From Amanita rubescens (lineage: Eukaryota > Basidiomycota > Agaricomycetes > Agaricales > Amanitaceae), in assembly GCA_015039365.1 (NCBI GenBank), contig WION01000296.1, positions 1 through 64,000 of the forward strand: DNA of 64,000 nucleotides, given 5' to 3'. The notes beneath the pieces were generated by a model. That model did not search any database. It saw only the letters and a program-made list of their open reading frames with translations, and was not told the origin of the DNA. Position numbers and translations under genes: made by a program. Of this stretch, positions 1 through 60,489 are shown piece after piece. Numbering within the stretch: position 1 is the first letter of the stretch; each line of letters starts with the position of its first letter.

Positions 1-657
1 ACGATTAGCGGTGTCCTCTGTTGATCCGAAATTTTTGCAAGCTGACCGGTAACCTACGGGCCGGTTCTCCGGAAGTTCGATAGTTATCTTGTGTTTCACC
101 AACGAGGTAATACTCGGGTATCGTTTTTATAAGTTCGACTTAATTGTTATGATCACGTCAATCTCCACCTACAATGTGTCCACGCTATGAGCGCTTGACA
201 AAGTAGACTAAGTCCAACGGACAAGTCAAACAATAGGTGAACGAATAAGCTAAGTGATAAGACGACTAGAAGAAGTCTTATCCTTGAGAGCGGTAATGAA
301 CGGAGTAAGAACGACGTTCTTTAGGTGAGATGGGGTGTGATATTGACAAAGACAAACTTAGTCGAACTTAAGGTTCGACGTTACAGTACATCGGTTTATA
401 TACATGTACAGAAACACAGCCATGTCGCAAGTAGAACAAGGGCGATAACAAGTATAGGTAAAACAGGGGGCATGGGGATGGTACGTGTATGAACAAGGTT
501 GGGCATAGGGTAAACGGAATGGGGATCGATAAGGGAACGAGGTAGTCCGTTTGATGAACATAATGGGGATGTGGCGAAGGGGTAGACATATACGAAAAAG
601 TAAGCATGTCCGACGTGTCATGTAATCATAATGTAGGAGTCCGTACCGTGTTTGTAA
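1..657. other. no recognisable gene
   Basis: This stretch contains only short open frames without recognisable domains or convincing splice structure. It is different in character from the AT-rich intron-like array that starts abruptly at about 658. I see no feature I can support here. Confidence 0.5.
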
Positions 658-2003
658 CAGCATGTATGATTATGACCCACAGCAGGTGAGTGACATCATT
701 ACACAGTTTGTTGAGACAATCTCATGCCTACATACAAACACAGGGAGTGAGTAACCTTTATGCAAGAAAATCTCATCTCATCCTCCCTTTGTGACCATAG
801 GTGGTGAATAATATCACACATTTTCCTGAAACACTGACTCATCTTATCACATCTTATGACTGATACATAGATTGTGAGTGAAAATCCACTCTCCTTCAAA
901 GTAATCTCTTTACATCTTTTTCCTATGGCTAACAGTTAGTAAGCAACATTCCACATTTCTGAAAGGACATTCTCCTACTACAATGCACAGAGAGTGAGTG
1001 ACACTCCATGTGTTCAAAAAAATAATCTCACTAATCAACAGGTTGTGAGTGCATATTGAACTTTTTTCTGAAGGGCTGCTTCATGGTATCTTCTTCTATG
1101 ACTGTCAACAGCAAGTGAGTCACATCTCACATTTTCTGGTGACAATGTTATCACATGATCTCAATAGCATGTGAGTAACATCCCTGATAATTTCTGATGA
1201 CAACATTATCAATTCTTTTATGGAAAATAGTATGTGAGAAATGTTTCACAATTTCTGAAAGGATATTTCTTCACATATCTTCTATACCAAAGGAAGTAAG
1301 TACTCCATGCAATAATTTTCTGGGAGCCAGTCTCAATCCTATCATTAACAGAAAGTAAGTGACATCACACATTTGTTGAAAGGCAGTCTCATCACCTCTT
1401 GTATACGGCCAAAAGCAAGTGAGTAACATCATCTTTCTCTGAAAACAGTCTCAAATTTCCATGAATAGATTGTGAGCACATTACAATCTTTCTAAAGTCT
1501 CATTACATTGTTTTTAAAACAGGAAGTAAGTGGCTTTGCACATTATCTGAAAGACATCCTTCAATGAATTTTCCCCCATGCTAACAGGAAGTAAGTGGGA
1601 TTACACATTATCCTGAATAGATGTTGTCATCACATTTGGAATATGACCATCAGCTTGTGAGTCACCTGGATAAATTCCTACAAGGGAGTCTCATGATATT
1701 TTCCCTTATGAATGATAGCAAGTCAGTGACATTCACAAGCCTTCACTTTACCTAAATTCATAACTGCTCCCTATATTACCCGGATACATGAAATGAACAG
1801 GAAGTGAGGAATAACCCAACCTTGTTCTCCCTGTGTTTTTTTTTGTGACATTGCTATTATTCATAGGTTGTAAGATACCACTTGTTCTGCAACCCTGTCT
1901 CCTCACACCTTATTCCTCACATTTGTGATTTGGATCTGCAGGTAAGTGGTGATGATGCATTGAGAGATAATAATCTCAAAACAAATTGACATGTTATCAG
2001 TGG
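658..2003 (+). repeat. tandem array of ~61-bp intron-like units separated by 3-nt spacers
   Basis: Donor-like hexamers (GTGAGT, GTAAGT and close variants) start at 686, 747, 804, 874, 939, 994, 1045, 1115, 1171, 1234, 1296, 1355, 1419, 1472, 1526, 1591, 1657, 1722, 1804 and 1870. Each is preceded by exactly three bases and then by AG. The 20 triplets are CAG GGA GTG ATT TTA AGA GTT CAA CAT TAT GAA AAA CAA ATT GAA GAA CTT CAA GAA GTT, none of them a stop. Unit interiors share a loose pattern (CACATTTTCTGAAAG, TCTCAT, TATGAC, AACAG) but are strongly diverged. Some have branch-site-like CTAAC, CTAAT or CTGAT near the 3' end. A 21st unit (donor 1942) directly abuts the preceding AG, and one more triplet (TGG, 2001-2003) follows an AG at 1999-2000. 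The array is either a chain of real introns with one-codon exons or a degenerate minisatellite. Confidence 0.85.
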
Positions 2004-2766
2004 GTAAGCCAATTCTTGATTGGATATTTCAGTCTTCTTATAATCAGTCTAAACTTTTCTCCTTGTTTGGAGATCAGCAAGGCCATTTTTCAGCAACAGT
2101 ATGTTTTTTGTTACTGTTTTTAGAAAAAAATTTGACCCTAGCAAACAAGCCCTCAACCTGCCAACTCTTGGCCGGTAAATCTATTCCATTCATATTATTT
2201 AAGCTTATCCTCTCAAGCAACTATTATCATTGGCAAGCTGTCATTTTGGATAAAAAAGCCACTTTCTCCATCAGTCAGGGAGGCATTAGACATAATCATG
2301 AAACAGGATTATGTTCACAAACTGAAGACTTGCATCAATTCCAAGTCTCTTCCCTATGATCATAAAGATTTGCCTGCATTCTTATATGATCAGATTACCC
2401 ACATTTGATGGTGTGTTCTTTATCTGCAATTTACACGATTTTTATACAAACCCAGGTCAGGAATTCTCATTAAACAACACTTGCACAAATATTTTCCTTT
2501 TATATGGCTTCCTTTCTTGTACTACAAGTATTTCAATGTCCCCTTCTTGGTGAAATTTCTGCTCTTGATGTACATATCTTGTCAAGATGATCTCTTCTAC
2601 AAATGTATACTGATCCCAAAGTACAACAAACCACTGGTGGCAATCACTATTGGAAGATGAACAAGGAACTTCAGAAATACTTCCATTCCATTATTGCAGA
2701 CGAGGGCAAGTTTATACACTGCCACCTAGTACTTCAACAAAGTTATCCCAAATGCAATCAGTGATA
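658..2766 (+). CDS. candidate gene with one-codon microexons followed by ordinary exons, function unknown
   Basis: If the intron-like units are spliced, their triplets join in one frame into a 20-residue stop-free peptide, starting QGVILRVQHY and ending EKQIEELQEV. Downstream, AT-rich open stretches look coding in the same strand. One at about 2222-2407 encodes IIGKLSFWIKKPLSPSVREA and continues to FLYDQITHI. One at about 2455-2655 is rich in aromatic and hydrophobic residues. One at about 2605-2766 includes TTGGNHYWKMNKELQKYFHS and ends in a stop. I recognise no domain. The 5' exon is not visible, and the array seems truncated at about 658. The last open stretch nearly touches the 3' end of the SDR gene on the opposite strand. 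The gene could be a transposon-derived coding unit, a host gene, or a decayed remnant. Exon joins downstream of 2000 are not resolved. Confidence 0.35.
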
Positions 2767-2803: not shown

Positions 2804-3728
2804 CTATCCCCCGTCGTCCAAAAACTGGCCTATAAGAACGGCCATGAGTAATTAATTCAACACCAACACAAAGTGGCACAACGCTCACAAGTCGGCCCAT
2901 CCGTATTGAGCAATGCCCAGGGCAACAAAGACTCTGCCCCCTGTCTAGTCGTTTTCCCACCTGCATGGAAATTATTCAACTTGGTCGTCGTAAGTCCAGG
3001 CGTTACAGCGTTAACTTTAATTCCATCCTTCTTCAACTCCTGTGCGAGCGTGATGGTGTACGAATTGGCAGCTGCTTTCGAAGTATTGTACGCGACGACG
3101 TGGATTCGGGCATTTGGACCTGCTTGCAAAGAGTTGGAAGCCATTTCGGTGGACACGTTGAGAATGACGGCTTGTGGAGAGGCGCGCAGTAAGGGTAGGA
3201 ACGTTGTAGTGGTTTGTACCAGACCAATCAGGTTAACTTCAAGGCAATCCCGGATGGCGGATACGTCGGCCGTACTGGCATTTTGGTCCCTTTCAAACGT
3301 TCCGATGCCTGTACGCAAAATCGTGGTTGCATTTTGGTTAATTGGCTTCCCAGTATAGGAGAGTTAAACCTTACCCGCATTATTGACGAGCACGTCCAGT
3401 TTGCCGTCACTCTGCTCGATTGAGTCCTTTGCAACCTTGATAGTTTCGATACTCGTGACATCGAGCAGGACGAACGTGACGTCGAGATTCTCCTTCTTAT
3501 GAATGAATAACGACGAAAAAGGCATACTAGGAGATACTCACGCAGCATCCCTGCCAGCTGCTTCGTTCCTGGCACCAAGATATACTTTGTGACCCTTTTG
3601 GGCTAACAGGTTTAAAAGTTCGTAACCAATACCAGTGTTGGCACCTGCGTAACTAAGGTATGAACGACGTGTATAGACAGCCTGAGATAGTGTTTCACTT
3701 TACCTGTGACAAGAATGACTTTTGACAT
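2804..3728 (-). CDS. short-chain dehydrogenase/reductase, paralogue 1
   Basis: This is a classical SDR with a Rossmann fold, expected to be an NAD(P)H-dependent oxidoreductase of the carbonyl-reductase-like group; the substrate is unknown. The start MSKVILVTG is followed by an intron and then ANTGIGYELLNLLAQ, giving the cofactor motif TGANTGIG. Further on are LDVLVNNAG (NNAG motif), a serine-containing strand NVSTEM and the catalytic YNTSK (YxxxK). At least four short introns are visible, including GTAAAG at 3703 and a 3' intron ending at 2830. The last exon (2804-2829) reads CQFLDDGG and stops at TAG. The paralogue at 15740-16682 has GAG at that position and runs five residues longer, so this copy is shortened slightly at the C-terminus. 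Its catalytic motifs are intact and it is probably functional. Confidence 0.88.
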
Positions 3729-15739: not shown

Positions 15740-16682
15740 TCACCAGTCCATCACCTCTCCCTGGCCATCCACAAACTGACCTGAAAGAACCGCCATGAGC
15801 ATTTCAAATGCAAAACAGCACAATACTTACAAGTGGGTCCATCTTTACCGAGCAATGCCCAAGGCAACAAAGACTCTGCGCCCTGCCTGGCCGTTTTCCC
15901 GGCCTCATGGAATTTAGTCATCTTGGTTTGCGTAAAACCAGGGGACACTGCGTTAACCTTGATCCCATCCTTCTTCAACTCGTGGGCAAGCGCGATCGTG
16001 TACGAGTTGGCGGCTGCTTTGGAAGCACTATACCCTATATCTTGGACCTTGGGAGTGTAACTTGCTTGCCAAGTGTTGGAAGCCAATTCGCTAGATACGT
16101 TAAGAATGACGGCTTGTGGAGAGGCTCGTAGGAGGGGTAGCAACGTTGTCGTGGTTTGTACTAGGCCAACCAGGTTAACTTCAATGCAGTCCCGGATGGC
16201 AGATGCATCAGCCGTGCTGGCGACGCCTTGCCAAGTCGTGCCTGATATGCCTGCGTGCAGAATCCTTTTAATCATCTAGCCCAGGGTGGAGCGAAGTTAA
16301 CCTCCTACCTGCATTGTTGACGAGTACGTCCAACCTTCCGTCGTTCTTTTCGATTATGTCCCTTGTGGCCTTGATCGTTTCGATATTTGTGACATCGAGC
16401 AGGGCGAACGTGACGTCTAGATTCTCCTTCTTCAACTTCTCGCTATCGATATATATATGAACAACGACAATGACCAAATCCGTGAGACATAACTACTCAC
16501 GCGGCTTCTCTACCTGCAGTGGGGTTCCTAGCTCCAAGATATACTTTGTGACCTTTTTGCGCCAGAAGGCTAACGAGTTCGTAGCCAATACCGGTGTTGG
16601 CACCTGTACCAATAACACATGGTAAGTAATGTGTATAGATGAACGACGTTTCATTACCTGTGACAAGAGTGACTTTTGACAT
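15740..16682 (-). CDS. short-chain dehydrogenase/reductase, paralogue 2
   Basis: This is an intact SDR closely related to the gene at 2804-3728, with the same intron positions. It starts MSKVTLVTG and splices to ANTGIGYELVSLLAQKGHKV, giving the TGANTGIG cofactor motif. LDVLVNNAG and NVSSELA follow, then the catalytic YSASK in VQDIGYSASKAAANSYTIAL. The segment GIKVNAVSPGFTQTKM carries the usual family proline-glycine turn. The 3' intron (GTAAGTATTG...TTTCAG) joins GPT to CQFVDGQGEVMDW before a TGA at 15740-15742. It is expected to be a cytosolic NAD(P)H-dependent reductase or dehydrogenase; the substrate is unknown. The two copies lie 12 kb apart in the same orientation and share flanking motifs, pointing to a segmental duplication. 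Residues differ enough (MIKRILHAGISGTTW against MRTGIGTFERD) that specificities could differ. Confidence 0.9.
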
Positions 16683-18466: not shown

Positions 18467-18858
18467 ATTTTGCGTTGATCTTTGTGATAGAAATCACGTG
18501 ATTATTCAGGATTGAGCGCGCCGACGGCAGAGTTACATTGTCATCCCGTCTTACGAAAGATTGTATACGTTATACCATCAGATGGCGAACTAACTTGGCT
18601 TGCTGCGCCATATAACCTCCAATTCTGTTGACAAAGGAGTAGATGAATTTCAGTTTATTAAGTAAGGGACCTTTAGAACGATTGCTCGTCCTAACCAGGT
18701 CAAGAGGAAATGTGGCGATGACATTCTTCGGACTAGATCTCTTGTTGATGGCATGGGCGCGTTGAATCACAAACAAGCCACAATGATACCTTTGATTCGT
18801 TACCACGACTAGCCACTGCAAGAACGCCACCTCGGAAACCTCATTCAAAGCAAAGCCC
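18467..18858. other. divergent intergenic region between RPC25 and F-box gene 1
   Basis: About 390 bp shared by two divergently transcribed genes. I see no strong TATA box, and the CCTAGGGTTAG motif found before the other F-box genes is absent. Confidence 0.45.
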
Positions 18859-20280
18859 ATGCAAACTGTCGGTAGTCGGCGCCCTCGCAGAGACGCTGAA
18901 AACAATGCTCACCCTATTCAAAGTTCGCATGCCGTCGGATCCCGTGGCACCTTCGCCAGATTTCGTGCTTCACGCGCCAATGCACCTATTCATTCTCTCC
19001 CTTTAGAGCTCCTTGGCGAAATCTTCATTCTTGCCTTGCCCACCATCCACGAACTTTACAAGAGGCACATTGACGAGGGAAAAAAAAGAACAAATCCTTT
19101 CGTTCTTTGTGCAGTGTGCTCCTCATGGCGGTTTCTTGCTTTTTGCACTCCTCAGTTGTGGATGCAGGTGTTTATCCGTGTCCCAATCGACATGACAAAA
19201 GATCAGGCTAGGAAAAAGGCCGCCGACCTCGTTCCGTGGATCGAGCGCTCTCGCACGCTGCCTCTTACCCTCCACATATCCTGCGATTTCGACAAGTCTC
19301 TGGATGGGACAGGGCCCGAAGCTCCCATTGTATCGGTCCTTAATGATTACTCCACCCGTTGGCAATCTCTGTATCTCCAGGATTACTTTTTGCCGTTTTC
19401 GGCGCCGCAGATCCCGTCATCTCCAAAACCCTTACCTTTGTTTCACTTTGATAGATGGTGCTCATTGCGGCAAATATCTTCCTTTTGCCGACATCGCGTA
19501 CCGCTCACGAACAAAGCTATTCCGTGGGCCCAACTTACGCGTCTCCAAGTCCAGGGCCAGATCTCTTGTCAAGCAGCAGAAACCATTTTCATGGAATGTC
19601 CGAAACTCGTGCAGCTATCAATTTCTGTCAATCCGACGCTCGGAATGACAGGAGTTCCTATAATCCTGCACGACTTGGTTACGTTCTCTCTTGGGGCGGT
19701 GCAATGTCTCCCGATGCTTGTGCATCGGCTGTCTTTGCCCTCTCTTCGAGACATTTTTTTAGACGTAGTTTGGCAAACAGACATCAAACCACTTTTAAAC
19801 TTTTTTACACGATCATCTTGTACCCTTAACAACTTGAAGATCTGTGGATCAGATCTCACGCCGAGCGATTACCTCGACGTTCTCGCACACCGGTCATGCA
19901 ATTCGCTCACTTCGCTCACCATGCGTTCCATTTATTGGCTCAGGAATCCTCCGTTTATTGACGATGAAGTGCTCCGGAGACTTACCTTACATCGAAATGA
20001 CACATTGTGCCCTTATTTAAAATTCTTGACGATCGACCTTGACATCCAAAGCTCTTCGCATTCAACGTTATTGAACATGGTGAAGTCTCGTTTTCATGCT
20101 GGCCAATTACCACTGCAGTACCTTTACTTCAAAGTCGAACGTCTCAATAATTTTGGAAAACTCTACAGAATTGGCAAGCGAAGTGGAATGGAATACACTC
20201 GTCAAAAGCTTAATAGGGCTGACGATGTTTACTCGGTTTTGTTACGAAGGCGAGGCGTCACGATGCATAATGATCGTTAG
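18859..20280 (+). CDS. F-box-like protein 1 (473 aa), intact
   Basis: This is an intronless gene of the large agaricomycete F-box-like family, predicted substrate-recognition subunits of SCF (Skp1-cullin-F-box) ubiquitin ligases. The F-box-like helix is at residues 41-62 (PIHSLPLELLGEIFILALPT). CAVCSSWRFLAFCTPQLW follows at about 86-103, a family signature (CsvCr.Wr..a..tp.LW). The rest is an irregular leucine-rich-repeat-like region with HISCDFD, LQVQGQISCQAAETIFMECP and FFTRSSCTLNNLKICGSDLT. It is the left-most of seven homologues. Unlike the other six, its N-terminus lacks the NGP(I/V/L)TRSR peptide and its upstream region lacks the shared motif, so it may be the oldest or a promoter-switched member. 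Target unknown. Confidence 0.88.
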   Translation: MQTVGSRRPRRDAENNAHPIQSSHAVGSRGTFARFRASRANAPIHSLPLELLGEIFILALPTIHELYKRHIDEGKKRTNPFVLCAVCSSWRFLAFCTPQLWMQVFIRVPIDMTKDQARKKAADLVPWIERSRTLPLTLHISCDFDKSLDGTGPEAPIVSVLNDYSTRWQSLYLQDYFLPFSAPQIPSSPKPLPLFHFDRWCSLRQISSFCRHRVPLTNKAIPWAQLTRLQVQGQISCQAAETIFMECPKLVQLSISVNPTLGMTGVPIILHDLVTFSLGAVQCLPMLVHRLSLPSLRDIFLDVVWQTDIKPLLNFFTRSSCTLNNLKICGSDLTPSDYLDVLAHRSCNSLTSLTMRSIYWLRNPPFIDDEVLRRLTLHRNDTLCPYLKFLTIDLDIQSSSHSTLLNMVKSRFHAGQLPLQYLYFKVERLNNFGKLYRIGKRSGMEYTRQKLNRADDVYSVLLRRRGVTMHNDR

Positions 20281-20630
20281 CTTCCTTGAAGAGATTTAAT
20301 CGTCTACTAGCTATCACGTTACATATGCAAATGCGCTTCTCTCACATTCATCGAGGTTTTCTTGAATGACAATTTATTTTCTACTATATGGCCACTATGG
20401 ACTGTTCAAGTTTTGTAGAACATCATGATGTCGGTAGCGCCAATCTACGTCACATAATTGTGTAGCCTGAACGGATCCGAAAATCCAAAAACGCCTTCGC
20501 CATTCATACCTCCAAGAGCAACAGCAACAGTGCCACCGGAATCAACATTGACACCTGTATGCCGCCAAGGTGATGAACTTAATGAGTCTTAGGGGGTCGG
20601 GATTCGGCGGCAGCGGCGAGACCAGACTCT
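20281..20630. other. intergenic between F-box genes 1 and 2
   Basis: No gene supported; 3' flank of F-box gene 1 and upstream DNA of F-box gene 2. Confidence 0.5.
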
Positions 20631-20650
20631 GACCCAAACCTAGGGTTAGG
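20631..20650 (+). promoter_or_regulatory. shared F-box upstream motif (telobox-like), gene 2
   Basis: GACCCAAACCTAGGGTTAGG, about 25 bp upstream of the ATG at 20675. It is the reference copy of a motif repeated before six of the seven F-box genes, and its core AACCCTA/TAGGGTT matches the telo-box core. Confidence 0.6.
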
Positions 20651-20674
20651 CTCACATAACTCACGTCGACGAGA

Positions 20675-22120
20675 ATGCCACCTCGAAAAAGGGCAAAGCC
20701 AAACCCTTCTCGGAACTTTCACAGAGAAGCCAAAAATGATGCTCACCTAACTCATTCGCACACCGTCCAATCACAGAGTGCTGTGGGATATAACGGCCCC
20801 CTCACCAGGTCTCGTCGCTTGCGCTCCCATCTGCCACCTATCTATTGCCTCCCCCCCGAAGTCCTCGGCGAAATCTTCATTCTTGCCTTGCCCACTGACC
20901 AGGAGATTCACATGACGTTACAATTTTACGGTAGTGGCGAGCTATTGACAAATCCTCTCATATTCTCCGCAGTGTGTTCATCATGGCGGCTGCTCGCTTT
21001 TTCTATCCCTCAACTGTGGAGGAGGATCTCCATCAAATTTCTATCCAACTTAACAGTAACCCGTGCTGAGAATAAGGCCGCTGTCCTCGTTCAATGGATC
21101 TTGCGCTCTCGTTCGCTGCCTCTTACACTACACATATCCCGTCACTATATGAATGGGATAGGGCATGAAGCTCCCATTACATCAGTTCTCAATGACTATG
21201 CCGCTCGCTGGGAATCCTTGTATTTTAAAGATCTTCAACGATCCTCGCATTTGTTTCGCTTTGATGGATGGCCTTTATTGCGGCGATTATATTTTCCCTG
21301 TGTGTCACCCACCAGCGAAGCTGTTCCATGGGCGCAACTTACGCACCTCCAAATTCAGCGGTATATGTCGTGTCAGGAAGCGGAAATCATTTTCATGAAG
21401 TGTCCAAAACTCGTGCACTTGTCGATTTCTGTTGATTCATGGCCAATTGGATCGGCTTCAGTTCCTATAACCTTATATGACTTAGTCACCTTCTCTCTTA
21501 AGGCCTCTAATCTCCTCGGAAGGCTTGTGGATCAGCTTTCTTTGCCCTCTCTACGTGAATGCTCGATTAGCGAACCCCAATCAGAAGACGTCGGTTCACT
21601 CTTGAACCTTTTTACGAGGTCATCCTGTACACTCGACAAGTTGGAGATCCGCGTTCAATGGGGCCTCATGCGTAGCCACGACTACGTCAAGATCCTAGCA
21701 CATCGGTCTTGCAGTTCGCTCGGTTCGCTTGCCATACTTTGCTTAGATCATCGCGATGGTACGCCAGCATACGATGAAATACTCCGGGGACTCGCCTTAA
21801 ACTCGAGTGAGACACTCTGTACTCATTTAAAGTTCTTGGTAATTGACTATTGCTTTCCAACTTCTTTACTTTCTGCACTACTGAACATGGTGGAATCTCG
21901 AATTAAGCCTCACGATGACCAGGCACCAGAACTCCAGTATCTTCGGCTTCACGTCAAATATCTCAAGGGTAGCATGAAGGAACTGGATAAAATTGGAAGG
22001 ACAAACGGAAATCGATTGGAATACAGCCGTGAACCATCCAAACTTGATTGTTGCAGAGTCCGGTTTCGAAGGGGAGGAATCGAGGCACCGCCCAACTTCA
22101 GCGAACTGCTCCAATCATGA
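20675..22120 (+). CDS. F-box-like protein 2 (481 aa), intact
   Basis: This intronless F-box-like gene begins with a basic N-terminus (MPPRKRAKPNPSRNF), then NGPLTRSR, then the F-box-like segment IYCLPPEVLGEIFILALPT at residues 56-74. FSAVCSSWRLLAFSIPQLW and an LRR-like body (VPWAQLTHLQIQRYMSCQEA, FMKCPKLVHLSISVDS, FTRSSCTLDKLEIR) follow. The ending, IEAPPNFSELLQS, is shared across paralogues as (A/E)PPN(F/I)(S/D/G)EL. It is predicted to be an SCF ubiquitin-ligase adaptor with an unknown target. It is tandem with genes 1 and 3 on the same strand. The ATG at 20675 is supported by the conserved MPP start in paralogues and by the motif just upstream. Confidence 0.9.
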   Translation: MPPRKRAKPNPSRNFHREAKNDAHLTHSHTVQSQSAVGYNGPLTRSRRLRSHLPPIYCLPPEVLGEIFILALPTDQEIHMTLQFYGSGELLTNPLIFSAVCSSWRLLAFSIPQLWRRISIKFLSNLTVTRAENKAAVLVQWILRSRSLPLTLHISRHYMNGIGHEAPITSVLNDYAARWESLYFKDLQRSSHLFRFDGWPLLRRLYFPCVSPTSEAVPWAQLTHLQIQRYMSCQEAEIIFMKCPKLVHLSISVDSWPIGSASVPITLYDLVTFSLKASNLLGRLVDQLSLPSLRECSISEPQSEDVGSLLNLFTRSSCTLDKLEIRVQWGLMRSHDYVKILAHRSCSSLGSLAILCLDHRDGTPAYDEILRGLALNSSETLCTHLKFLVIDYCFPTSLLSALLNMVESRIKPHDDQAPELQYLRLHVKYLKGSMKELDKIGRTNGNRLEYSREPSKLDCCRVRFRRGGIEAPPNFSELLQS

Positions 22121-22796
22121 TCAAGAGGTTCAAGGAGATCGCGACTATTTCGGTTACGTTAGTACAAACCCCCAGGCTATCCTATCTAATTTATGTTATG
22201 TGTATCATTGTGCGTAGAATTCTGTTGTCCCTTTTCCGCCAGCGGCGCTAAATGTTCAAGTTATTGTGTCGACAGTTTCCCCCAAGATCGAAATTGTTTT
22301 CTGAATCACTGCATCTAATTCGTCATTCCAGACATTTTCTCAACCCCGCCCCTTCTATCGACATCTCCATTGATCATGGTACCAGTCTTGTCTTGAGATA
22401 AAGTAACGCCTGAATCAAGCCTGGAAACTAGAACAACAGCCCTAGCCTATGCAAGCCGTTCAACGACGGCAGCGATGATGAGCGATAACCTTATTGCAGG
22501 ACTTGAATTGCCGGACAACTTGAAGTACATTCATTTAAGATTGGAGGAGCGGATAGTGGTGGATTGGGATGACGTACGATGTGCTTTACTTGACAAAGAC
22601 TTTGCAACAGATCCGGCGTTTACATCATCAATTACTATTAGAGCACCTATACTAGCTTCAACAGTGATTTTTTTGTTTGCAGGCTCACTAATTGGTAGCT
22701 AGTCGTTGGGGGTTTTGAAGTGTTGTTTCATGGCGTCGATGAACGTTTGAACGTCCAGTCTCTTAGTGGGTTGATGTATTGGTTGCGGTAGTGGTG
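22121..22796. other. intergenic between F-box genes 2 and 3
   Basis: A 75-codon open frame at 22475-22702 has no recognised domain and no support. The rest is flanking DNA carried with the F-box units. Confidence 0.45.
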
Positions 22797-22818
22797 CAGA
22801 CCCAAACCTAGGGTTAGG
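22797..22818 (+). promoter_or_regulatory. shared F-box upstream motif, gene 3
   Basis: GACCCAAACCTAGGGTTAGG again (identical core), ending about 23 bp before the ATG at 22842. Confidence 0.6.
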
Positions 22819-22841
22819 ACACAACTCTGACTCGCACGAGA

Positions 22842-24332
22842 ATGCCACCAAAGCCAAAACCTTTCACGAGCACTCGGAACCTTCACAAGGAAAGCCGAAA
22901 TGGTGCTCACCCTACTTATTCACGCGCCATCCAATCACCCAAGAGCGCTGCGGAATACAATGGCCCCGTCACCAGGTCTCGTGTTTTGCGCGCCCCTTCA
23001 CCACCTACTATCCATAGCCTCCCTTTAGAGATCCTCAGCGAAATTTTCACTTTTACCTTGCCAACAAACCGGGAACTTTACAGCATGCCACAGTTTTACG
23101 ACAGCGAGAGACGAAAATTGATAATTACGACTCCCGTATTTTGCGCAGTATGTTCTTCATGGCGAAGTCTCGCGTTGGCCACCCCTCGATTATGGAATAG
23201 GATCCTCATCCATATCCCACGTCGCATAAACAAGGCCCAGGTTAACAGGAAGGCCGCTGACCTTATTCAATGGATTTCGCGCTCTCATTCTTTACCTCTT
23301 ACACTACACGTATCTGGTGATATCGTCACTCCTCCGAATGGGAAAGGTCCCGAAGCACCTATTATATTGGTTATCAAGGACCACGCTGCTCGCTGGGAAT
23401 CCTTGTATTTCCGAGTTTCTCAACCATCATCGTTTTTGCTTCATTTTGATGGATGGCACTCATTGCGGCGATTGTACTATCCCTATTTGGATCCTGTGTC
23501 ATGCGCAAACGAAACCGTTCCTTGGGCGCATCTCACGCACCTCCAAATTCGGAAATTTATACCTTGTCCGGATGCAGCAATGATTTTCACGAAGTGTCCG
23601 AAACTCGTGTATTTTTCGATCTTGGTTAATCCGGATCCATCGACAATTGGACAAAGTACAGTTCCCATAATCTTGGAAGACTTAGTCACCTTCTATCTTA
23701 AGGCGTACAATGCAGCCAGTCTCCAAACAGTCCTGCATCAGGTTTCTTTGCCCTCTCTACGAGAAATTTCTATTAATGAAATTTCATCAAGAGATATTGA
23801 ACCGCTCTTAAGCCTTTTTACACGATCATCTTGTACCCTTGACAGGTTGGATGTTTGTGGAGTAGACCTCTCGTCAAGAGACTACCTCGATGTTTTAGCA
23901 CACTCGTCTTGCAAATCACTCACTTCGCTCTCCATTCGTCCTTTATCTCTCAGTTGTGCGCCACTCGACGAAGAAGTACTTCAAAGACTTACCTTACACC
24001 GGGATGACACTATTTGCAGTCACTTATCGTTCTTGACGATCAACTACTGCATTCCGACTTCTTTACTCTCCGCACTCCTGAACACGGTGGAGTCTCGAAT
24101 TAAATGTGCTGCCGGCCAGGTACCGGAGGAACCAGAGCTTCAGTATCTCCGGCTTCACCTCAAATATCTCAAGAAAAACGCGGCAAAACTGGATAAGGTT
24201 GGAAGGAGGAGTGGAATGGAGTACAGCCACGAAAGATTCATATCTGGTGACGGTGACGGTTGTTTGTCAGTTTGGTTTCAAAGACAAGGATTCAGGGCAC
24301 CGCCTAACTTTGACGAACTGTTTTGGGTTTAG
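22842..24332 (+). CDS. F-box-like protein 3 (496 aa), intact
   Basis: This intronless F-box-like gene starts MPPKPKPFTSTRNLHKESRN, followed by NGPVTRSR and the F-box-like segment IHSLPLEILSEIFTFTLPT at residues 57-75. CAVCSSWRSLALATPRLW is the second signature. The body is LRR-like, with WAHLTHLQIRKFIPCPDAAM, LFTRSSCTLDRLDVCGVDLS and SLLSALLNTVESRIKCAAGQ. It ends FRAPPNFDELFWV. It is closest in wording to the two degraded minus-strand copies at 24981-26437 and 27044-28510 (shared CAVCSSWR, NTVLIHxP and FTRSSCTLDRLE blocks). It probably recruits an unknown target to an SCF ubiquitin ligase. Confidence 0.9.
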   Translation: MPPKPKPFTSTRNLHKESRNGAHPTYSRAIQSPKSAAEYNGPVTRSRVLRAPSPPTIHSLPLEILSEIFTFTLPTNRELYSMPQFYDSERRKLIITTPVFCAVCSSWRSLALATPRLWNRILIHIPRRINKAQVNRKAADLIQWISRSHSLPLTLHVSGDIVTPPNGKGPEAPIILVIKDHAARWESLYFRVSQPSSFLLHFDGWHSLRRLYYPYLDPVSCANETVPWAHLTHLQIRKFIPCPDAAMIFTKCPKLVYFSILVNPDPSTIGQSTVPIILEDLVTFYLKAYNAASLQTVLHQVSLPSLREISINEISSRDIEPLLSLFTRSSCTLDRLDVCGVDLSSRDYLDVLAHSSCKSLTSLSIRPLSLSCAPLDEEVLQRLTLHRDDTICSHLSFLTINYCIPTSLLSALLNTVESRIKCAAGQVPEEPELQYLRLHLKYLKKNAAKLDKVGRRSGMEYSHERFISGDGDGCLSVWFQRQGFRAPPNFDELFWV

Positions 24333-24548
24333 GGAGGTTGCGACTGTCACGGTTGTTTTCACGGTTGCCTTGAAACTCCCCAAGTCACTCTCGTATCTAA
24401 ATTTAGTTACTACTGTAGGTATTATATCATGGCTAGCCCATTTTCTCATATGATTGGCGTTGCATTGGTCTTCCCTGGCGATTATTAGTAAGGTCTGATG
24501 CAAAGTTAGGTCTGACAAGTTGCCCAACTGTCTTGCCATGCGCACCAT

Positions 24549-24825
24549 GCCTGTCCTCGTTCGACGACCTGATCTTCGCCGCGATCTCTTCTGATACAAG
24601 TGACCGGAATACGACCAGCGTGAAACCACTATGTCATGGCCCATAATCGTTGTTTTCTACAGTGCCATTTGCGAGGCCCTCGCACCTTTGTACAACGGAA
24701 ATCCGTCGCCATATCTCACTTTTCCTCCTACCAAATAAACGTCATATAGTACAACACACTGTTCGCATACTTTTTTTAGATTTTGGCGATAATCGTATGT
24801 TCTGCGGGCATGCTAACGAGTATTC
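24549..24825 (-). pseudogene. partial, degraded copy of RPC25
   Basis: The segment aligns base by base with 18071-18365 of the intact RPC25 gene. Shared blocks include TTCTGATACAA, GGAATACGACCAGC, CACCTTTGTAC, CGTCGCC(G/A)TATCTCAC, TGTTCGCATACTTTTT and GTTCTGCGGG. It covers about two N-terminal exons and the intron between them, with deletions that break the frame and no flanking exons. It lies between F-box units, so a stretch containing RPC25 (the neighbour of F-box gene 1) was duplicated together with F-box DNA and then decayed. Confidence 0.8.
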
Positions 24826-24980
24826 CGAGTTGTTGGGCTACCGAAGAAAGAGGGACAAAATAATCCTGCGCATGATGATACATATAACATACATTAAACT
24901 TTAGGATAGTTTGGAGATTTGTAATGTAACCGCGACAATCGGTGCCTCCCTAGTAAACCGTACGATCACAGTTCGTCGAA

Positions 24981-26437
24981 GTTAGGCGGTTCCCTGAAGC
25001 CTCAGTCTTCGGAACCGAACTGAGAAGCAACCATGTTTGGCTCCAGTTCGGTCACGGCTGTATTCCATTCTACTTCCTCCTTCCAACCTTATCCAGTTCA
25101 ACTGCCATTTGCGTCTCACCATATCCGAGATGAAGCCGGAGATAACGAAGCACCGGTTCTTCCGGTTCCTGGCCAATATGCGAATTGATTCGAGACTCCA
25201 CCATGTCCAGTAGTGCGGAGCTTAACGGACGAATGCAACAATCGATTGCCAGGAATGTTAAATGATGGCACAGGGTGTCATTTCGGTGTAAGGTGAGTCT
25301 CCGAAGCAGTTCTTCGTCAAAGGACTGGCCAACACTCGCCAGGATATAAGGGACATAGGGTAAGCGAAGTGAGTGAGTCGTAAGACGAGTGTGCTAGGAG
25401 ATTGAAGTATCCTCTTGGCGCAACGTATAGCATTGGACAAATCTCCAACCTGTCAAGGGTACAAGATGATCGTGTAAAAAGGTTTGAGAGCGGTTCAGTA
25501 TCTATTGACACGATTTGATTGATAGAAATGTTTCGTAGAGAGGGCAAAGAAAGCTGATGCAGGATTGTTTGGAGACGGATCGACTCATAGCAGAGCTTGA
25601 GATAGAGGGTGACTAAGTCTTCCAAGATTATGGGAACTGTGCTTTGTCCAACTACCGTTGAATCAACCAAGATCGATAAATACACGAGTTTCGGACACTT
25701 CATGAAAATCGACACTGCATCCCGACCAGATATATATTTCTGAATTTGGAGGTGCGTGAGATGCGCCCAAGGAACACTTTTGTTTTCGCATGACACAGGA
25801 TAATATAGTCGCCGCAGTGAGTGCCATCCCTCAAAGTGAAACCGAAACGACCATGGTTGAAAATTTTGGAAATACAAGGATTCCCAGCGAGCAGCGTGGT
25901 CATTGATAATTGATATAATAGGAGCTTCGGGACCTTTCCCACCCGGAGACCGAATGATATCACTGGATATCTGTAGTGAAAGGGGCAACGAACGGGAGCG
26001 CTCGATCCATTGAACAAGGTCGGCAGCCTTCCTTTAGCCTGGGTCTTGTTCATGTCATTTGGGAAGTGGATGAGAACCGTATTCCACAATTGAGGGGTGG
26101 AAAACGCAAGAAACCGCCATGAAGAGCACACTGCGCAGAAGACGAGAGTCGGCGGAATTATTAATTTTCGTCCCTCGTAAGACTGTAACCTGCGGTAAAG
26201 CTCCTGGTCGGTTGGCAACGCAAAAATCAAAATTTCGCTGAGGATCTCCAAAGGGAGGCTATGGATAGCAGAATGGGCGCGCAAAACACGAGACCTGGTG
26301 ACGGGGCCATTGTATTCCGTGGCGCTCTCAGGTGATTGGATGGTACGTGAATAAGTAGGATGAGCGCCATTTCGAGCTTCTCTGTGAAGGTTCCAAGTGC
26401 TCGTGAAAGGTTTTAAAGGCTTTTTTGGAGATGGCAT
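24981..26437 (-). pseudogene. F-box-like gene 4, frameshifted
   Basis: This minus-strand homologue starts MPSPKKPLKPFTSTWNLHRE. It has NGPVTRSR, IHSLPLEILSEILIFALPT and CAVCSSWRFLAFSTPQLW intact, but the frame changes near 26035 after MNKTQAK. Reading continues in another frame (SLPLSLQISSDIIRSPGGKG, FTRSSCTLDRLEIC) to about 25320. A second shift and stops follow before the C-terminal remnant (NLIRLEGGSRMEY-like and EPPNFDEL-like) near 24981. No single frame longer than 245 codons remains. It carries the shared upstream motif at 26469-26496, so it was a complete unit before it decayed. Confidence 0.85.
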
Positions 26438-26468
26438 GCCAGTGCTTGTGCGAGTCAGAGTTGTGACC

Positions 26469-26496
26469 TAACCCTATACCTAGGTTTGGGTTTGGG
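26469..26496 (-). promoter_or_regulatory. shared F-box upstream motif, gene 4
   Basis: On the minus strand, CCCAAACCCAAACCTAGGT is followed by ATAGGGTTAG. It is a slightly expanded version of the motif, about 32 bp upstream of the start at 26437. Confidence 0.55.
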
Positions 26497-27043
26497 CAGG
26501 TTCGTCCCGACTCCAGCCTCAAAGCGCTCGCAATGACATCATTCCGATGCCCGAATATGTGAGTCTCTCTCCTAGTCTCTCCTAGTAGTTAGTAAACGGT
26601 TGCCAATCTATTGCTTCCGCTGCAACCAATGTTGATTCCAGTGTCACCATTGCTGTTGCCCCTGGGATGGTGTAGATGGTTTGGTTGATGTCGAGTAACA
26701 TGCTATGAATGTATTCGCACTGTTATTCACGGAAAGAAATGTGGATTTGTTATATGATACTAATACATACATGCCTTTCCTGAGCCCATCAAACAATTAG
26801 ATGATTCGTATTGAGAACAAGAACAAGTGCGCAAGAAAATAAAGTTAGTAAAGCAACAAAAAGAACCAAGACAAAGAACAACGGGGTCGAATTGACAGAA
26901 ATTGATAGCTGCAAGAGTTTCAGATATTGATTTCCCCGTTCAGAAGAAGGAAGTGATGATCTTACGATGAGCGTGAATCTGTACGGAAAGTGTGGTTACA
27001 CGCCTCGCGACAGTTGCAGCCACCCTAAACCTAACGATCATGA
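26497..27043. other. intergenic within the F-box array
   Basis: No gene supported. The right end (about 26950-27043: GTGATGATCTTACGA, CATCCTAAACCTAA-like) matches the 3' flank of F-box copy 6 (about 29178-29281), so flanks were duplicated with the genes. Confidence 0.5.
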
Positions 27044-28510
27044 TCAAAACAGTTCGCCAATGTTAGGCGGTTCCCCGAAGCCTTGTCTTCGAAACCAAAC
27101 TGAGAAGCAACCAGGTTTCAATCCGGCTCCTTCACGGCTGTATTCCATTCCGCTCCTCCTTCCAATCTCATCCAGTTCTGCCGTGTTCGTCTCGGATATT
27201 CGACGTGAAGCCGGAGATAACGAAGCGCCGGCTCTTCTGATACCTGACCAGTATGCAATATGACTCGAGACTCCACCATGTTCAGTAGTACAAAGCGTAA
27301 CGAAGCTGGAATGCAATATTCGATCCCCAAGAATGTTAAATGACGGCACACGGCGTCATTTCGGTGCAGCGTGAGTCTTCGAAGCACGTCTTCGTCAACT
27401 GGGAGATGGAATGAGGGACGTATGGTGAGCGAAGTGAGTGAATCGCAGGACAAGTGTGTCAGGACGTTGAGGTAGTCTCCTGACGCGAGATATAATCCAC
27501 GAATCTCCAACGTGTCGAGGGAACAGGATGATTGAGTAAGAAGGTTTAAGACCGGTTGGATCGATCTTGTCGAAATCCCATCAATAGAAAATTCCCGTAG
27601 AGAGGGCAAATAAAGCTGGTGGATGAGTGTTTGGAAACTGTCCACCGAGTTCATGCGAAAATGGAAGGTGACCAAGTCTTCCAACACTATGGGAACCGTG
27701 ACTGAACTTTGTCCAAATGTTGGTGGATCAACCAAGATCGATAAATAGACGAGTTTTGGACACTTCATGAAAATCATCAGTTGCATCCCGACAAGGTATT
27801 GATTGCTGAATTCTGAGGTGCGTGAGATATGCCCAAGGAGCGGTTTCATTTGCGCATGATTTGGGATCCGAATAGGGACAATATACTCGCCGCAACGAGT
27901 GCCATCTATCAAAGCGAAACAAAGATAATGATGGTTGAAAATCTTGAAGATACAAGGATTCCCAGCGAGCAGCGTGGTTATTGATAACTAATATAACGGG
28001 AGCTACGGTCCCTTCTCATTCAGAGGCTCGATGGAATCACCGAATATGTGTAGTGTCATAGGTAGTGAACGGGCGCGTTTGATCCATTGAACAAGGTTGG
28101 CGGCCTTCCTTTTAGCCTGAGCTTTTCCCATGTTATGAGGGACATGGATGAGGACCGTATTCCACCAATTGAGGTGTGGAAAACGCAAGAAACCGCCAAG
28201 AAGAGCACACTGCGCACAATACGAGAGTTGGATTAAACAATTTTAGTCTCTCGCTATCGTACTTGTTGCAGAGTTCCCGGTCGGTGGGCAATGCAAGGAT
28301 TAAGATTTCGCCAAGAATTTCTAAAGGAAGGCTATGGATAATAGACGACGACGAATGGCCGCGCAAGACACGAGACCTGGTGACGGGGCCATTGTAGCCT
28401 GCAACCCTCTGTTGGACGGAGTGTGAATGAGCAGAATGAGCAGAATAAGCGTCATTTTGGGCTTCTCCGCAGGGGTTTTGAGCGCTCGCAAAAGGCATTC
28501 GCTTTGACAT
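27044..28510 (-). pseudogene. F-box-like gene 5, multiply frameshifted
   Basis: This minus-strand homologue probably started at 28510 (MSKRMPFASAQNPCGEAQND), with NGPVTRSR and IHSLPLEILGEILILALPT. After LAFSTPQL the frame breaks (about 28145). Fragments in different frames continue: NTVLIHVPHNMGKAQAKRKA, then LQDFQPSLSLFRFDRW, then KCPKLVYLSILVDPPTFGQS, then GFGEPPNIGELF at 27044. At least four frame changes are needed, so it is clearly dead. Its upstream motif is preserved at 28536-28556. Confidence 0.85.
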
Positions 28511-28535
28511 TTTTGTAGAGCGCGGCAGAGTTGCG

Positions 28536-28556
28536 ACTAACCCTAGGTTTGGGTCT
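28536..28556 (-). promoter_or_regulatory. shared F-box upstream motif, gene 5
   Basis: The minus strand reads GACCCAAACCTAGGGTTAGT, 26 bp upstream of the inferred start at 28510. It is nearly identical to the copies before intact genes 2 and 3. Confidence 0.6.
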
Positions 28557-28639
28557 GTGCACTCCAAGAGGTCTCGGATGCAGACCTCAATCGGATCCTT
28601 ATTCCCACTGATGCTATCCACACCTGCCCCACGCGCTGA

Positions 28640-29130
28640 ATACTGATTCAGGCCCGGAAGAGATTATGAGTCATTCAACGACTTTGCCCACGCCAAAAGA
28701 CTTCTTTTGAGAGCTGCCAGCCCATCTAATGGTCAACTCGTCTTTCCTGTCTCTCTCGAACAGGCTCGTATACGTCTCCATTGTGCTGCCATCATCGCCT
28801 GCCTACGCCTATCTTCTCACACGCAGGCATCTCGAACGCGCTGCCTATCTCACCCAGCCCGGAATTTGCACAGCCCCCTGTCCACTGGACCCTTTGCTCA
28901 GCTTACTCAGCGTCCAATACTACAGTCTCCCCAGTGAACAAGGCGAGGCAGAGGCCAAGGTGGCTCTCGGAAAATGATTTCTCTGTGGTTCAGGCGACGA
29001 TCCTTCTTCTCCAGGTTACTTTGAAACTTGCTTCGACTTTTGCTGACTGCAAGGCGGCTCATCGCGGCTTGCATAGCGCAATACGCTGAGTCCGACTTAC
29101 TACATGCACCCTTGCGTATTGATCTCAATC
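28640..29130 (+). pseudogene. remnant of a Sel1-repeat (Skt5/Chs4-like) gene
   Basis: One frame reads TQPGICTAPCPLDPLLSLLS and then EQGEAEAKVALGK, a stop, and FLCGSGDD. Another continues KLASTFADCKAAHRGLHSA and AESDLLHAPL. This pattern resembles the GEAEADMALSKWFLCG...LAYTFAEKAARKGLPSAEFA core of Sel1-repeat chitin-synthase activators of the Skt5 type. The match is from memory of the family pattern and is interrupted by stops and frame changes, so it is at most a relic. It lies in the upstream DNA of F-box copy 5. Confidence 0.4.
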
Positions 29131-29281
29131 ATTTCCAGTGGGAGGGAGTTGCAACTTGCATGATGAATGTCATTGGAAGTGATGATCTTACGACGACCTT
29201 GAATCTGTAGCACACGCCTTTGTTTGCATCTCTGTAATTTAATCGCAACAGTTACAGCCATCCTAAACCTAATGATCATAC

Positions 29282-30753
29282 TCAAAACGGTTCGCCGATG
29301 TTAGGCGGTTCCCTGAAGCCTTGTCTTCGAAACCGAACCGAGGTGACTATGAGTCTTTTAGTACGACTGTATTCCATTCCACTCTTCCTTCCAACCTTAT
29401 CCAGTTCTGCCGCAGCGTCCTTGAGATATTCGACTCGAAGCTTGAGATAACGAAGCGCTGATTCTTCTGGTACCTGGCTGGTATGTGATTTGATTCGAGA
29501 CTTCACCATGTTCAGTAATGTGGAGTGTAACGGGGTTGGAATACAAAATTTGATCGCCAAGAATGTTAAATGATGGCACACGGTGTCATTTCGGTGTAAA
29601 GTGAGTCTTTGAAGCACTTCTTCGTCAACTGACCCATGCTCATAATAAGTTGAGGGACCTATGGTGAGCCAAGTGAGCGAATCGCAAGACGAGTGTGTCA
29701 GGACGTTAAGGTTGTCTCCTGGCGAGAGGTATGATCCACGAATCTTCAACCTGTCAAGGGAACAAGATGATCGTGTAAGAAAGTTTAAGAGTGGTCGGAT
29801 TCCCTCCGGCGAAATATCCTTAATTGAAAATTCTCGTAGAGAAGGCAAAGAAAGCCGGTGTACGAGTGTTTGGAGACTGAGCAAGCGTTGCGTCTTAAGA
29901 ACGAAGGTGACTAAGTTTTCCAAGATTATGGGAACTGTACTTTGTCCAATTGTCGATGGGCGTCGATCAGTAACCGAGATCGATAAAAACACGAGTTTTG
30001 GAAGCTTCATGAAAATGACTGCTGCATCCTGACAAGATATAAGCATCCAAATTCGGAGGTGCGTGAGATGCGCCCAAGGAACGGTTTCGTTCGCGCAAGA
30101 CGCGAAATCCTTGAAATAGGGACAATATAGTCGCCGCAATGACTGCCATCCATCAAAGTGGTATGGATCACCAATACCCAGGAAATACAAGGATTCCCAG
30201 CGAGAAGCGTGGTCACGGATAACTGATATAATGGGGGCTTGAGGACAATTCCTATTCTGAGAATGGAAGAGACCACCGGCACCTGATACGTGTAGTGTAA
30301 TAGGTAGCGAACGAGAGCGTTCGATCCATTGAACAAGGACGGCGGCCTTCCTTTTAGCCCGGGCCTTGTTTATGTTTGCTGGGACATGGATGAGGACCGT
30401 GTTCCACAATCGAGGGGTTAAAAATGCAAGGGATCGCCATGAAGAGCACACTGTGCAGAATACAAGAGTTTGATTTATCACTTTTGTCCCTCGCTGTACT
30501 TCTTGTAGAGCTCCTGGTCGGTGGGCAATGCAAGGATTAAGATTTCGCCAAGAACTTCAAAAGGAATGCTATGGATAGGATGCGACGAATGGCCGCGCGA
30601 GGCTCGAGACCTGGTGATAGGGCCATCGTAACTTGCAACGCTGTGTGATTCAAGTTGAACGGCGTGTGAATGAGCAGAGTGTGCGTCATTTTGAGCTTCC
30701 CTATGGGGGTTTTCAGTGCTCGTGAAAGCCTTTCGCTTTTTTCGAGGAGGCAT
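29282..30753 (-). pseudogene. F-box-like gene 6 with a single frameshift
   Basis: The start at 30753 (MPPRKKRKAFTSTENPHREA) leads to an intact F-box-like segment (HSIPFEVLGEILILALPT) and ELYKKYSEGQ. The frame then meets TGATAA at about 30478. Shifting by one base restores VINQTLVFCTVCSSWRSLAF, and the rest (399 codons, to a stop at 29282) is open through FLTRSSCSLDRLKIRGSYLS to FREPPNIGEPF. This is either a very young pseudogene or a sequencing error. The 399-codon part alone starts at a methionine inside the linker and lacks the F-box, so it would not be a normal SCF adaptor. Confidence 0.8.
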
Positions 30754-30780
30754 TTTTGCAGAGCGGGGCAGAGTTGCGAC

Positions 30781-30805
30781 TAACCCTAGGTCATGTTTGG
30801 GTCTG
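30781..30805 (-). promoter_or_regulatory. shared F-box upstream motif, gene 6, interrupted
   Basis: The minus strand reads AGACCCAAACATGACCTAGG followed by GTTA: the shared motif with a few extra bases (ATGA) between CCCAAAC and CCTAGGGTTA. It lies 28 bp upstream of the start at 30753. Confidence 0.5.
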
Positions 30806-31535
30806 TTCCAGACATGTCTCACATTGTCTCAACTAGCAGCGGACCTTAAGAGGGCAGAATTTGCGATGCTGATTTTGGTCGAGATACTAGGAGTGCCAGA
30901 TGACAATTTTAAATGGTCAAATATATCCTATACTATAGCACATCATAGCGCTGCGGCAAACGAGTAAAGAATCGAAGTCAAGAGGAGACCTGGAAGAAGA
31001 GAGCAAAAAACAGACATTAAACCACAAAGCAACCCTCCGCGTATTCAATCACCTCTCCGCCTCATGCGGACGCCGTCCCATTATTGATGCATGATGCATT
31101 GATGATCCATCGGCCTGCTTAGGCCTCAATGAAACGGACAAAGAGATGTCATACCCGAAGTTGTAAAGTCCGTCAGTTCTCCATCTCTGTCACCGTACTT
31201 GACAAGGCTTACCAGATTTTCCGCCGGCGTTGACAATGATATCATCAATCAGAGCATAAATAGCTCCAGTAGCGAATGTGTTGTTCGCAAATCATTCAAG
31301 AGCTCGATTTCCTAAGGAAAATTAGATCAGCAACCACCCCGATTTCGACTAGAGAACAACTTACATCCGCCAATCACTGGCTTGGTCAACTACTACTCTC
31401 ATCGATTCTTGGGAGTTGAATTTGGGGAATAAGGGCGGTGTTGTTGTTGCACTGGGTGCATCTCGACATTCAATACTTTTATCAGGGTCTTGGTGCGTTG
31501 CTCGACAAGTGTGTCAAAATGTCGTAAGAACATGA
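30806..31535. other. intergenic between F-box copies 6 and 7
   Basis: Divergent upstream DNA. A minus-strand stretch at about 31210-31390 has VNAGGKSG-like and intron-like signals, but I cannot assign it. No gene supported. Confidence 0.4.
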
Positions 31536-31555
31536 GAACCCAAACCTAGGGTTTA
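31536..31555 (+). promoter_or_regulatory. shared F-box upstream motif, gene 7
   Basis: GAACCCAAACCTAGGGTTTA, about 50 bp upstream of the ancestral ATG at 31604 and 72 bp upstream of the ATG used now at 31627. Confidence 0.55.
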
Positions 31556-31626
31556 TCAAATCTGACTCGAACGCACATACTCAAATCAGTCGTGCTTTAA
31601 CAAGATGCCACCTCATCCTCATAGAA

Positions 31627-42376: not shown

Positions 42377-42412
42377 CTTTACCCTCCCCCACGTGTCCTT
42401 GTGGACTCCTTG
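42377..42412 (+). repeat. left TIR of nested element
   Basis: Starts CTTTACCCTCCCCCACGTG and pairs with 45094-45129. Confidence 0.75.
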
Positions 42413-58800: not shown

Positions 58801-59059
58801 GTGTGCCAGTTCCAAAACAGTTCCTGTCAGACAATCTTGGACAATTAGAAAGTCAGAAAACTAGTGTACCACCTCCAAACACCCAATCAGATTATTCCTG
58901 AAGCCAGGGACATTACTATATGCATAGCATACACACTTTTTGAATCCTTTAAGACATGAGCATTTCAAGCATTGCTGTCACAGGCAGTTGTTCCCTTAGA
59001 AAAAGTAATATATGTAGGACAGTCCTGAAAGTCAGTGTTAATTGTCTGTCTGCCTTAAA

Positions 59060-60439: not shown

Positions 60440-60489
60440 ACAATTAGACAGAATTAGACAGAATTAGTTTTTTCCCCGTTTACCTGATG
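60440..60489 (-). repeat. right TIR of the large element
   Basis: Reverse complement begins CATCAGGTAAACGGGGAAAA. It pairs with 39663-39712. Confidence 0.8.

Follow-up and report, generated by a model that had tools for sequence, protein, structure and literature searches.

The C-terminal region of a family of P-loop GTPases in Amanita rubescens is very probably encoded by a chain of phase-0 exons of one codon each, separated by introns of about 60 nt, and the 3' part of one such chain is contained in the DNA analysed here. This DNA, referred to as the window, is a stretch of 64,000 nucleotides (positions 1 to 64,000 of contig WION01000296.1, assembly GCA_015039365.1). The array found near its start constitutes the 3' portion of one member gene of the GTPase family, a coding chain whose 5' side is cut by a dispersed repeat at approximately position 660.

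The first-pass annotation of the window had described a series of intron-like units separated by exactly one codon, and this pattern is real. The strict motif AGNNNGTRAG was detected 26 times on both strands of the 64-kb window, 19 of these matches being located on the + strand between 681 and 2008, where 0.14 would be expected on one strand (Poisson P of about 5e-34). A chance origin of the motif series was rejected on the basis of this expectation and of a reversed two-unit control, which gave no match in the assembly. Splice-site parsing resolved the array into 20 one-codon exons with a mean pitch of 62 bp. The 5' border of the series had been set too far upstream, as the CAT near 661 does not count as a unit, the dispersed repeat reaching up to about 660. 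The peptide read from the joined triplets, QGVILRVQHYEKQIEELQEV, was correct and runs on into ordinary exons. An extra codon unit had been placed ahead of the final TGG; a zero-length exon was found there instead. Tandem Repeats Finder did not report the array of the window, and neither Rfam at gathering scores nor ARAGORN gave any hit within the window. The following features were assigned, all on the + strand:

1..659 (+): end of a dispersed repeat, which adjoins the array and removes the 5' part of the gene.
660..682 (+): 3' remnant of a mini-intron, ending in TATGACCCACAG as other mini-introns do.
683..1869 (+): 20 one-codon exons encoding QGVILRVQHYEKQIEELQEV (splice-site parse and strict motif count), with 19 mini-introns of 48-79 nt between them.
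One-codon exons 1-5 (+): CAG 683, GGA 744, GTG 801, ATT 871, TTA 936.
One-codon exons 6-10 (+): AGA 991, GTT 1042, CAA 1112, CAT 1168, TAT 1231.
One-codon exons 11-15 (+): GAA 1293, AAA 1352, CAA 1416, ATT 1469, GAA 1523.
One-codon exons 16-20 (+): GAA 1588, CTT 1654, CAA 1719, GAA 1801, GTT 1867.
1870..2000 (+): interval of 131 nt with a zero-length exon, CTGCAG/GTAAGT, between 1941 and 1942 (here and below, a slash marks a splice junction).
2001..2003 (+): last one-codon exon, TGG (W).
2048..2098 (+): ordinary exon SKLFSLFGDQQGHFSAT, homologous to ELFSVFGEHSTFFSAT of the JGI sequence P0007.
2150..2174 (+): ordinary exon encoding PSTCQLLA and ending with the first base of a further codon, homologous to ATACQVLA of P0007; the acceptor was picked as the one that keeps the frame.
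2218..2408 (+): terminal exon (A)TIIIGKLSFW...FLYDQITHI with the stop TGA at 2406-2408, its end matching FLYDNIAHI of P0007.

The joined C-terminal tail of the window copy is identical to P0007 at 48 of 87 positions (E 5e-30). The repeat upstream of it was recovered with 92-100% identity and nearly always over the full 659 bases, for the 40 places scored of 446 candidates (window included). When the query was started at position 600, the matches in other copies of the repeat stopped at positions 660-668 of the window. We take the repeat to be possibly an LTR-type end.

It could be argued that the family is real and that the copy in the window is a dead relic, cut by the repeat and no longer spliced; we consider the chances of this reading to be even. 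At about 660 the repeat directly adjoins the array, and it also contains the start of the contig, so that the part with the G1, G3 and G4 motifs is missing from the window copy and neither G domain nor promoter is visible. Against this, all 21 codons and the 3' exons have kept their frame to the stop of the family. Moreover, the repeat sits within an intron, and its insertion could therefore be tolerated, provided that the 5' part exists beyond the end of the contig.

Several other features were observed in the window. Similar long ORFs on both strands at 18796-33075 resemble an F-box gene cluster, the one ORF tested giving only E 0.006 with the Pfam F-box-like domain. ORFs at 2857-3363 (-) and 15751-16275 (-) share stretches of short-chain dehydrogenases (LLRASPQAVILNVS), the former matching PF00106 (5e-20). 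A Copia-type gag ORF (PF14223, E 2e-18) is located at 41889-42470 (+) and an HNH endonuclease domain (PF13391, E 2e-10) at 34375-34944 (-). Tandem arrays built on TCAGACA/TGTCTGA-like words are present at 40395-41086 and 58011-60467. The ORFs at 54043-57043 (+) presumably resemble the Plavaka-type transposases of mushrooms; the one ORF of this group that was tested gave no Pfam match.

P-loop GTPases carry the motifs G1 (GxxxxGK[ST]), G3 (DxxG) and G4 ([NT]KxD) in this order. In the gene on contig C2, the exons located 5' of the array carry GRANAGKT, DSQG and TKFD, and a conserved C-terminal exon follows 3' of the array. The same three motifs were found, in order, in the genes on C650 and C54 and in the JGI protein P0004. 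The domain of the C54 gene reached 22.8 bits with PF01926 (cut-off 21.9), P0004 and P0008 remained below the Pfam cut-offs, and no relative of solved structure was obtained at E 0.01. A KDZ-type transposase had been considered as host gene and was dropped once the GTPase motifs appeared. The G domain of the family is encoded by ordinary exons, and the one-codon exons are located in the C-terminal region.

The assembly of A. rubescens (75.7 Mb, 786 contigs) contains the G1 exon of the family at no less than 150 places (150 scored of 261 candidates) and the C-terminal exon likewise at 150 places at least (150 scored of 214 candidates). A two-unit pattern, YAGNNNGTRAGT-N35..65-YAGNNNGTRAGT, was detected 5,807 times in the assembly (3,096 forward and 2,711 reverse), and its reversed control gave 0 matches. 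In 11 arrays, including that of the window, the pattern finds 200 pairs per 549 one-codon exons, from which roughly 16,000 one-codon exons are estimated for the assembly, a rough extrapolation from these 11 arrays. Most family copies examined have the one-codon-exon architecture. According to the parse, the ten longer arrays comprise 40-79 one-codon exons each, with uninterrupted runs of up to 77. The C-terminal exon served to fetch 30 loci, 25 of which have at least 15 units in the flank examined; the other five (L030, L031, L033, L035 and L037) have only 3-8 units there. Gaps of approximately 700-900 bases were noticed in four of these five loci, which may have received insertions or lost their chains. 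Among the two-unit places listed, eight clusters were distinguished, seven of which lie beside clear GTPase exons; for the eighth, at C1:764768, only a weak match of 19 aa to the GTPase was obtained. At this locus (L018, C1:760-770 kb), the micro-exon pair is isolated beside the 19-aa match and is likely a relic of a dead family member. Many loci occur as equal-scoring pairs on different contigs, which we read as two haplotypes.

The tail is missing from the deposited protein models of this GTPase family that were examined. Among 120 proteins listed, those deposited for A. rubescens cover 56-85% of the query, mostly 73-82%. The model P0003, which is 99% identical to the C54 gene, reads at its end from FPHYW on into the next intron, and P0006 ends in W-ASD, as it would from reading through a GCAAGTGAT donor. 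As the models examined lack the tail, other genomes may contain similar genes that have escaped notice.

The absence of stops argues for a coding function of the triplets. With the strict motif, none of the 474 triplets from 21 array stretches is a stop, where 34.3 would be expected; permuting the first bases against the rest of the triplets never gave less than 19 stops in 20,000 permutations. For this count, matches overlapping within 30 bases were dropped and the leftmost was kept. If overlapping matches are retained, apparent stops appear 4 nt past the real codon, for instance AAG/TGA/GTGAG within CAAGTGAGTGAG. A reversed-hexamer control overlaps the real motif and was not used. With a more permissive parse, 25 loci, including four that are allele copies of other loci in the set, delivered 788 exons of three nucleotides with 4 stops, as well as one 6-nt exon containing TGA. 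One of the four stops is a misparse of CCAG/AAA/GTAAGC and the others are found at damaged or ambiguous sites, which suggests that some copies of the family are degraded. The locus C1a (C1:29-35 kb, L009/L010) displays such lesions, namely an exon of 4 nt (AGCT) within the chain and ordinary exons of altered length. Damaged sites were also noticed in C1b and C124.

Exon length was addressed by a parse with a uniform prior of 0-90 nt, applied to 459 exons in 11 arrays. The length was exactly 3 nt for 387 of them. Lengths of 1, 2, 5, 8 and 10-12 nt were never obtained, and lengths of 4 and 7 nt once each. Another 53 exons of 52-78 nt have the appearance of units merged across a weak site, while the remaining 17 are 0, 6, 9, 13-15, 25, 28, 29 or 39 nt long. 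The C54 chain is shortened by the parse. Codon usage differs as well between the two types of exons: the ratio of NAA to NAG is 71:69 in the ordinary exons of three genes versus 127:19 in one-codon exons (Fisher 2e-11), and that of NAT to NAC is 87:32 versus 100:1. Codons ending in AG are thus avoided in one-codon exons. The codon choice would here bear the mark of splicing, since an internal AG would offer a second acceptor 3 nt downstream.

The encoded peptides are homologous between paralogous chains. For the 45 pairs among ten arrays, with 1,981 aligned units in total, the residues are 35% identical. The intron interiors of the same units are 57.8% identical at the matching position versus 54.8% elsewhere, and are therefore saturated. 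A control with shifted register was lenient, because the alignment maximises the register, and a test with shuffled peptides was used instead. All 28 pairs among the eight arrays of the main subfamily reached z values of 4.9-18.1 (a few short exons of several codons are part of these peptides, and the C54 peptide is missing its end). C1c and C1e belong to a second subfamily, with z 12 to each other. Compared with other arrays, only the pair C776-C1c exceeds z 4, and no significant similarity to three JGI tails was obtained for C1c and C1e (z 0.7-2.3). C124 reached only z 3.4 with P0007. A common frame of the chains could be recognised, starting with WFE-AD--A--ER and ending with KERDKRQQF-K--I, with a variable middle; C650 (WFESADRIARVERNIYEKSDRRKNLDNYGKKMAHLSYKERDKRQQFFKEI) and C776 (WFERAESIARDERQFYDEDGAAEGEYAHEYGGLAHEYYIGIGMKERNKRQQFLKREI) are given as examples. 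A comparison of alleles showed 0 differences in 363 codon bases versus 34 in 6,551 intron bases, which are too few differences to discriminate.

Identical introns can occur within one and the same array. The C228 array contains 21 introns that are identical over 62 nt without any substitution, and these follow seven different codons (GGA, TTT, GAA, CAA, TAT, CTC and CGA). At the conserved ends of the C228 chain, the introns are diverged. In eight arrays, 216 identical intron pairs were counted, 214 of them from C228. Of these pairs, 19% share the upstream codon and 26% the downstream one, versus 8-9% for a flanking codon in pairs below 85% identity. In C228, the sharing between identical introns corresponds to the codon composition of that set itself. 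Since most identical introns are flanked by different codons, two possibilities arise, namely copying or homogenisation of introns between codons, or a much faster change of codons than of introns; the former is probably the case. The minority of shared codons fits some duplication of units.

Near-identical copies of the intron exist at many places, as is the case for introners: a 29-mer piece of the intron, with at most 3 mismatches, was found at 2,089 places in the assembly, and its reversed control at none. At least 44 exact 29-mers are listed for C13:581787-584805, mostly with a pitch of 65 bp, and 25 for the C228 locus (L057). An array of an exact 29-base intron piece, mostly at 56-bp pitch, was also observed at C8:77801-80520. 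The arrays at C13:581787-584805 and C8:77801-80520 are possibly the youngest chains.

From these data we lean towards the view that each codon of the variable region became an exon of its own, built by introns that copied themselves between codons, and that the chain serves as a diversification device. Introns would multiply or become homogenised largely without copying the flanking codons, and recombination between near-identical introns would add or drop whole codons. Gain and loss of whole codons would change the length of the tail without damage to the frame and make the tail hypervariable. If true, the variable region is a series of single-codon cassettes read by the spliceosome, recombination in identical introns alters the length and composition of this series, always in frame, and such a device exists in well over a hundred GTPase copies of one mushroom.

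A less likely, though possible, explanation is that codon and intron were duplicated together as a unit, and that codon-targeted change or strong diversifying selection, instead of intron copying, subsequently altered the codons. The runs of four GGA in C228, the narrow codon set of the young arrays and the more frequent codon sharing at higher intron identity are in favour of it. The length of the chain also varies between copies, as seen in the distance from the G1 to the C-terminal exon (5.0-6.0 kb, measured in five copies whose exons score equally) and in the numbers of 29-mers (44 vs 25). The seven codons preceding 21 introns free of substitution would however require a codon rate much higher than the intron rate.

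The chain was found in joined form in related JGI sequences, of which P0004 stems from a close relative. P0004, a protein of 478 aa from a contig of 1,486 bp, was matched by the whole query derived from a hand-spliced gene in a protein search, and reads without interruption FPHYW-VIREEDDKHNEID-WFESADDAAGKEREYYDDGIHSGGYGYYGGKKISEKERDHRRDFVEREIL-PGLLSLF. The locus at C1:29.7-31 kb (C1a) matches P0004 with 86% and 90% identity over the two exon stretches listed and is taken, from sequence comparison, for its ortholog in A. rubescens. At this locus the tail stretch of P0004 is present as single codons. From W to L, 41 of 50 positions are identical between the C1a chain and P0004, 8 are different and one is ambiguous (shuffle z 36), despite the lesions of the locus. 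This was obtained from a separate count, the ambiguous residue of C1a having been omitted in the BLAST comparison, which resulted in a gap. When the tail of P0004 alone was used as query, only P0004 was returned out of 22 candidates. P0007 and P0008 display a joined tail too, and P0012 and P0013 a tail of the WF type. On the N-terminal side of the chain, P0007 and P0008 share 288 of 303 aligned positions, and on its C-terminal side 84 of 89, versus only 27 of 52 inside, the chains being 69 and 52 residues long, respectively. The two proteins differ within the chain and agree on both sides, and the tail is therefore hypervariable.

We infer that the JGI contigs are cDNA from their lack of introns, and not from the source record. 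They might alternatively be intronless genomic retrocopies, a very improbable reading considering that several distinct members are uninterrupted (P0004, P0007, P0008 and P0012, contigs of 1,486-1,506 bp), and even a retrocopy must originate from spliced RNA.

The chain of 3-nt exons is thus supported by stop-free triplets, by homologous peptides in paralogs and by the joined ORF in a close relative. The alternative proposed along with it in the first-pass annotation, a decaying minisatellite inside one large intron with a founding unit that had splice-like borders, would agree with tandem units of about 62 bp, with identical introns at a fixed 65-bp pitch in some arrays and with codon sharing of 19-26% in identical intron pairs vs 8-9% below 85% identity, but it is hardly credible any more: no stops occur among the triplets, which are conserved between paralogs despite saturated introns, their peptide is present joined in a contiguous ORF, and of the 216 pairs of identical introns (214 from one array), 74-81% have different codons beside them, so that unit and spacer would mostly not have been copied together.

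Regarding the splicing of the chains, intron medians of 56-62 nt in the arrays would fit intron definition, with the spliceosome removing the introns singly. Two spliceosomes are unlikely to assemble around one 3-nt exon, and the introns should therefore leave one by one. After each joining, NNN/GTRAGT would constitute the next donor, resulting in a ratchet-like processing. A zero-length exon was identified directly before the last codon in 18 of the 25 loci parsed, two of which are allele copies, and it always reads YAG/GTRAG; for the other seven loci it is absent from the parse. The two halves around it together measure 98-152 nt. An AG/GT usable as acceptor and donor, which defines a recursive splice site at the sequence level, is present here as read from the DNA, in an interval of these 98-152 nt and not in a very long intron. 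The conserved zero-length exon near the end of the chain may represent a true recursive splice site, at which the ratchet reaches its limiting case. If this holds, intron definition can function with almost no exon, and the family lends itself to the study of stepwise and zero-exon splicing in a natural setting. As some intron copies are identical, the multiplication of introns is also open to direct study.

In the open-access literature searched, by titles and abstract openings, no chain of one-codon exons and no paper on microexons in Amanita was found, and the words Amanita and Basidiomycota are absent from the main text of PMC9860276. Short exons have been described in other fungi, according to the sections cited here: P450 genes of P. 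chrysosporium contain exons of 2-10 aa, the shortest of 6 bp, with frequent introns of 45-55 bp (PMC1184071), and Xlr2 of Trichoderma a microexon of 20 nt (PMC11121469). These microexons have 6 nt or more, and no one-codon chain is described in the same sections. Fungal introner-like elements comprise, in the part of the source consulted, hundreds of near-identical introns per genome in unrelated genes (PMC4457414); the Amanita copies examined seem to belong to one gene family and have a one-codon pitch. Zero-nucleotide recursive splice sites are described in very long introns in the section cited (PMC13149111). Following the definition given there, the Amanita site is similar in consisting of AG/GT with nothing between, at a fixed place and after a pyrimidine-rich stretch, and differs in splitting an interval of 98-152 nt only. 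The bicycle and megacycle genes of aphids evolve rapidly and are rich in small exons, the microexons of one gene numbering more than 100, as stated in the portion cited (PMC9168663). Their internal exons are, according to the same portion, almost all of phase 2, whereas the Amanita exons are of phase 0 and one codon long.

The closest resemblance is to the micro-exon genes of schistosomes, which, in the excerpt of PMC8293314 relied on, consist mainly of exons of at most 36 bp and amount to 72 genes in 25 families. As in that excerpt, the Amanita genes have many short exons that can be removed without loss of frame, and variable proteins; mainly symmetric exons of at most 36 bp are found in their C-terminal region only. 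Unlike the schistosome genes, the exons of the Amanita arrays are nearly all exactly one codon long, up to 77 of them follow in a row within a GTPase family, and the introns of one array can be mutually identical. The schistosome class is further characterised by host-exposed proteins and by microexons that are alternatively spliced. We therefore rate the Amanita chains as an extreme form of the micro-exon gene, in which exon size was reduced to one codon and kept so for dozens of consecutive exons.
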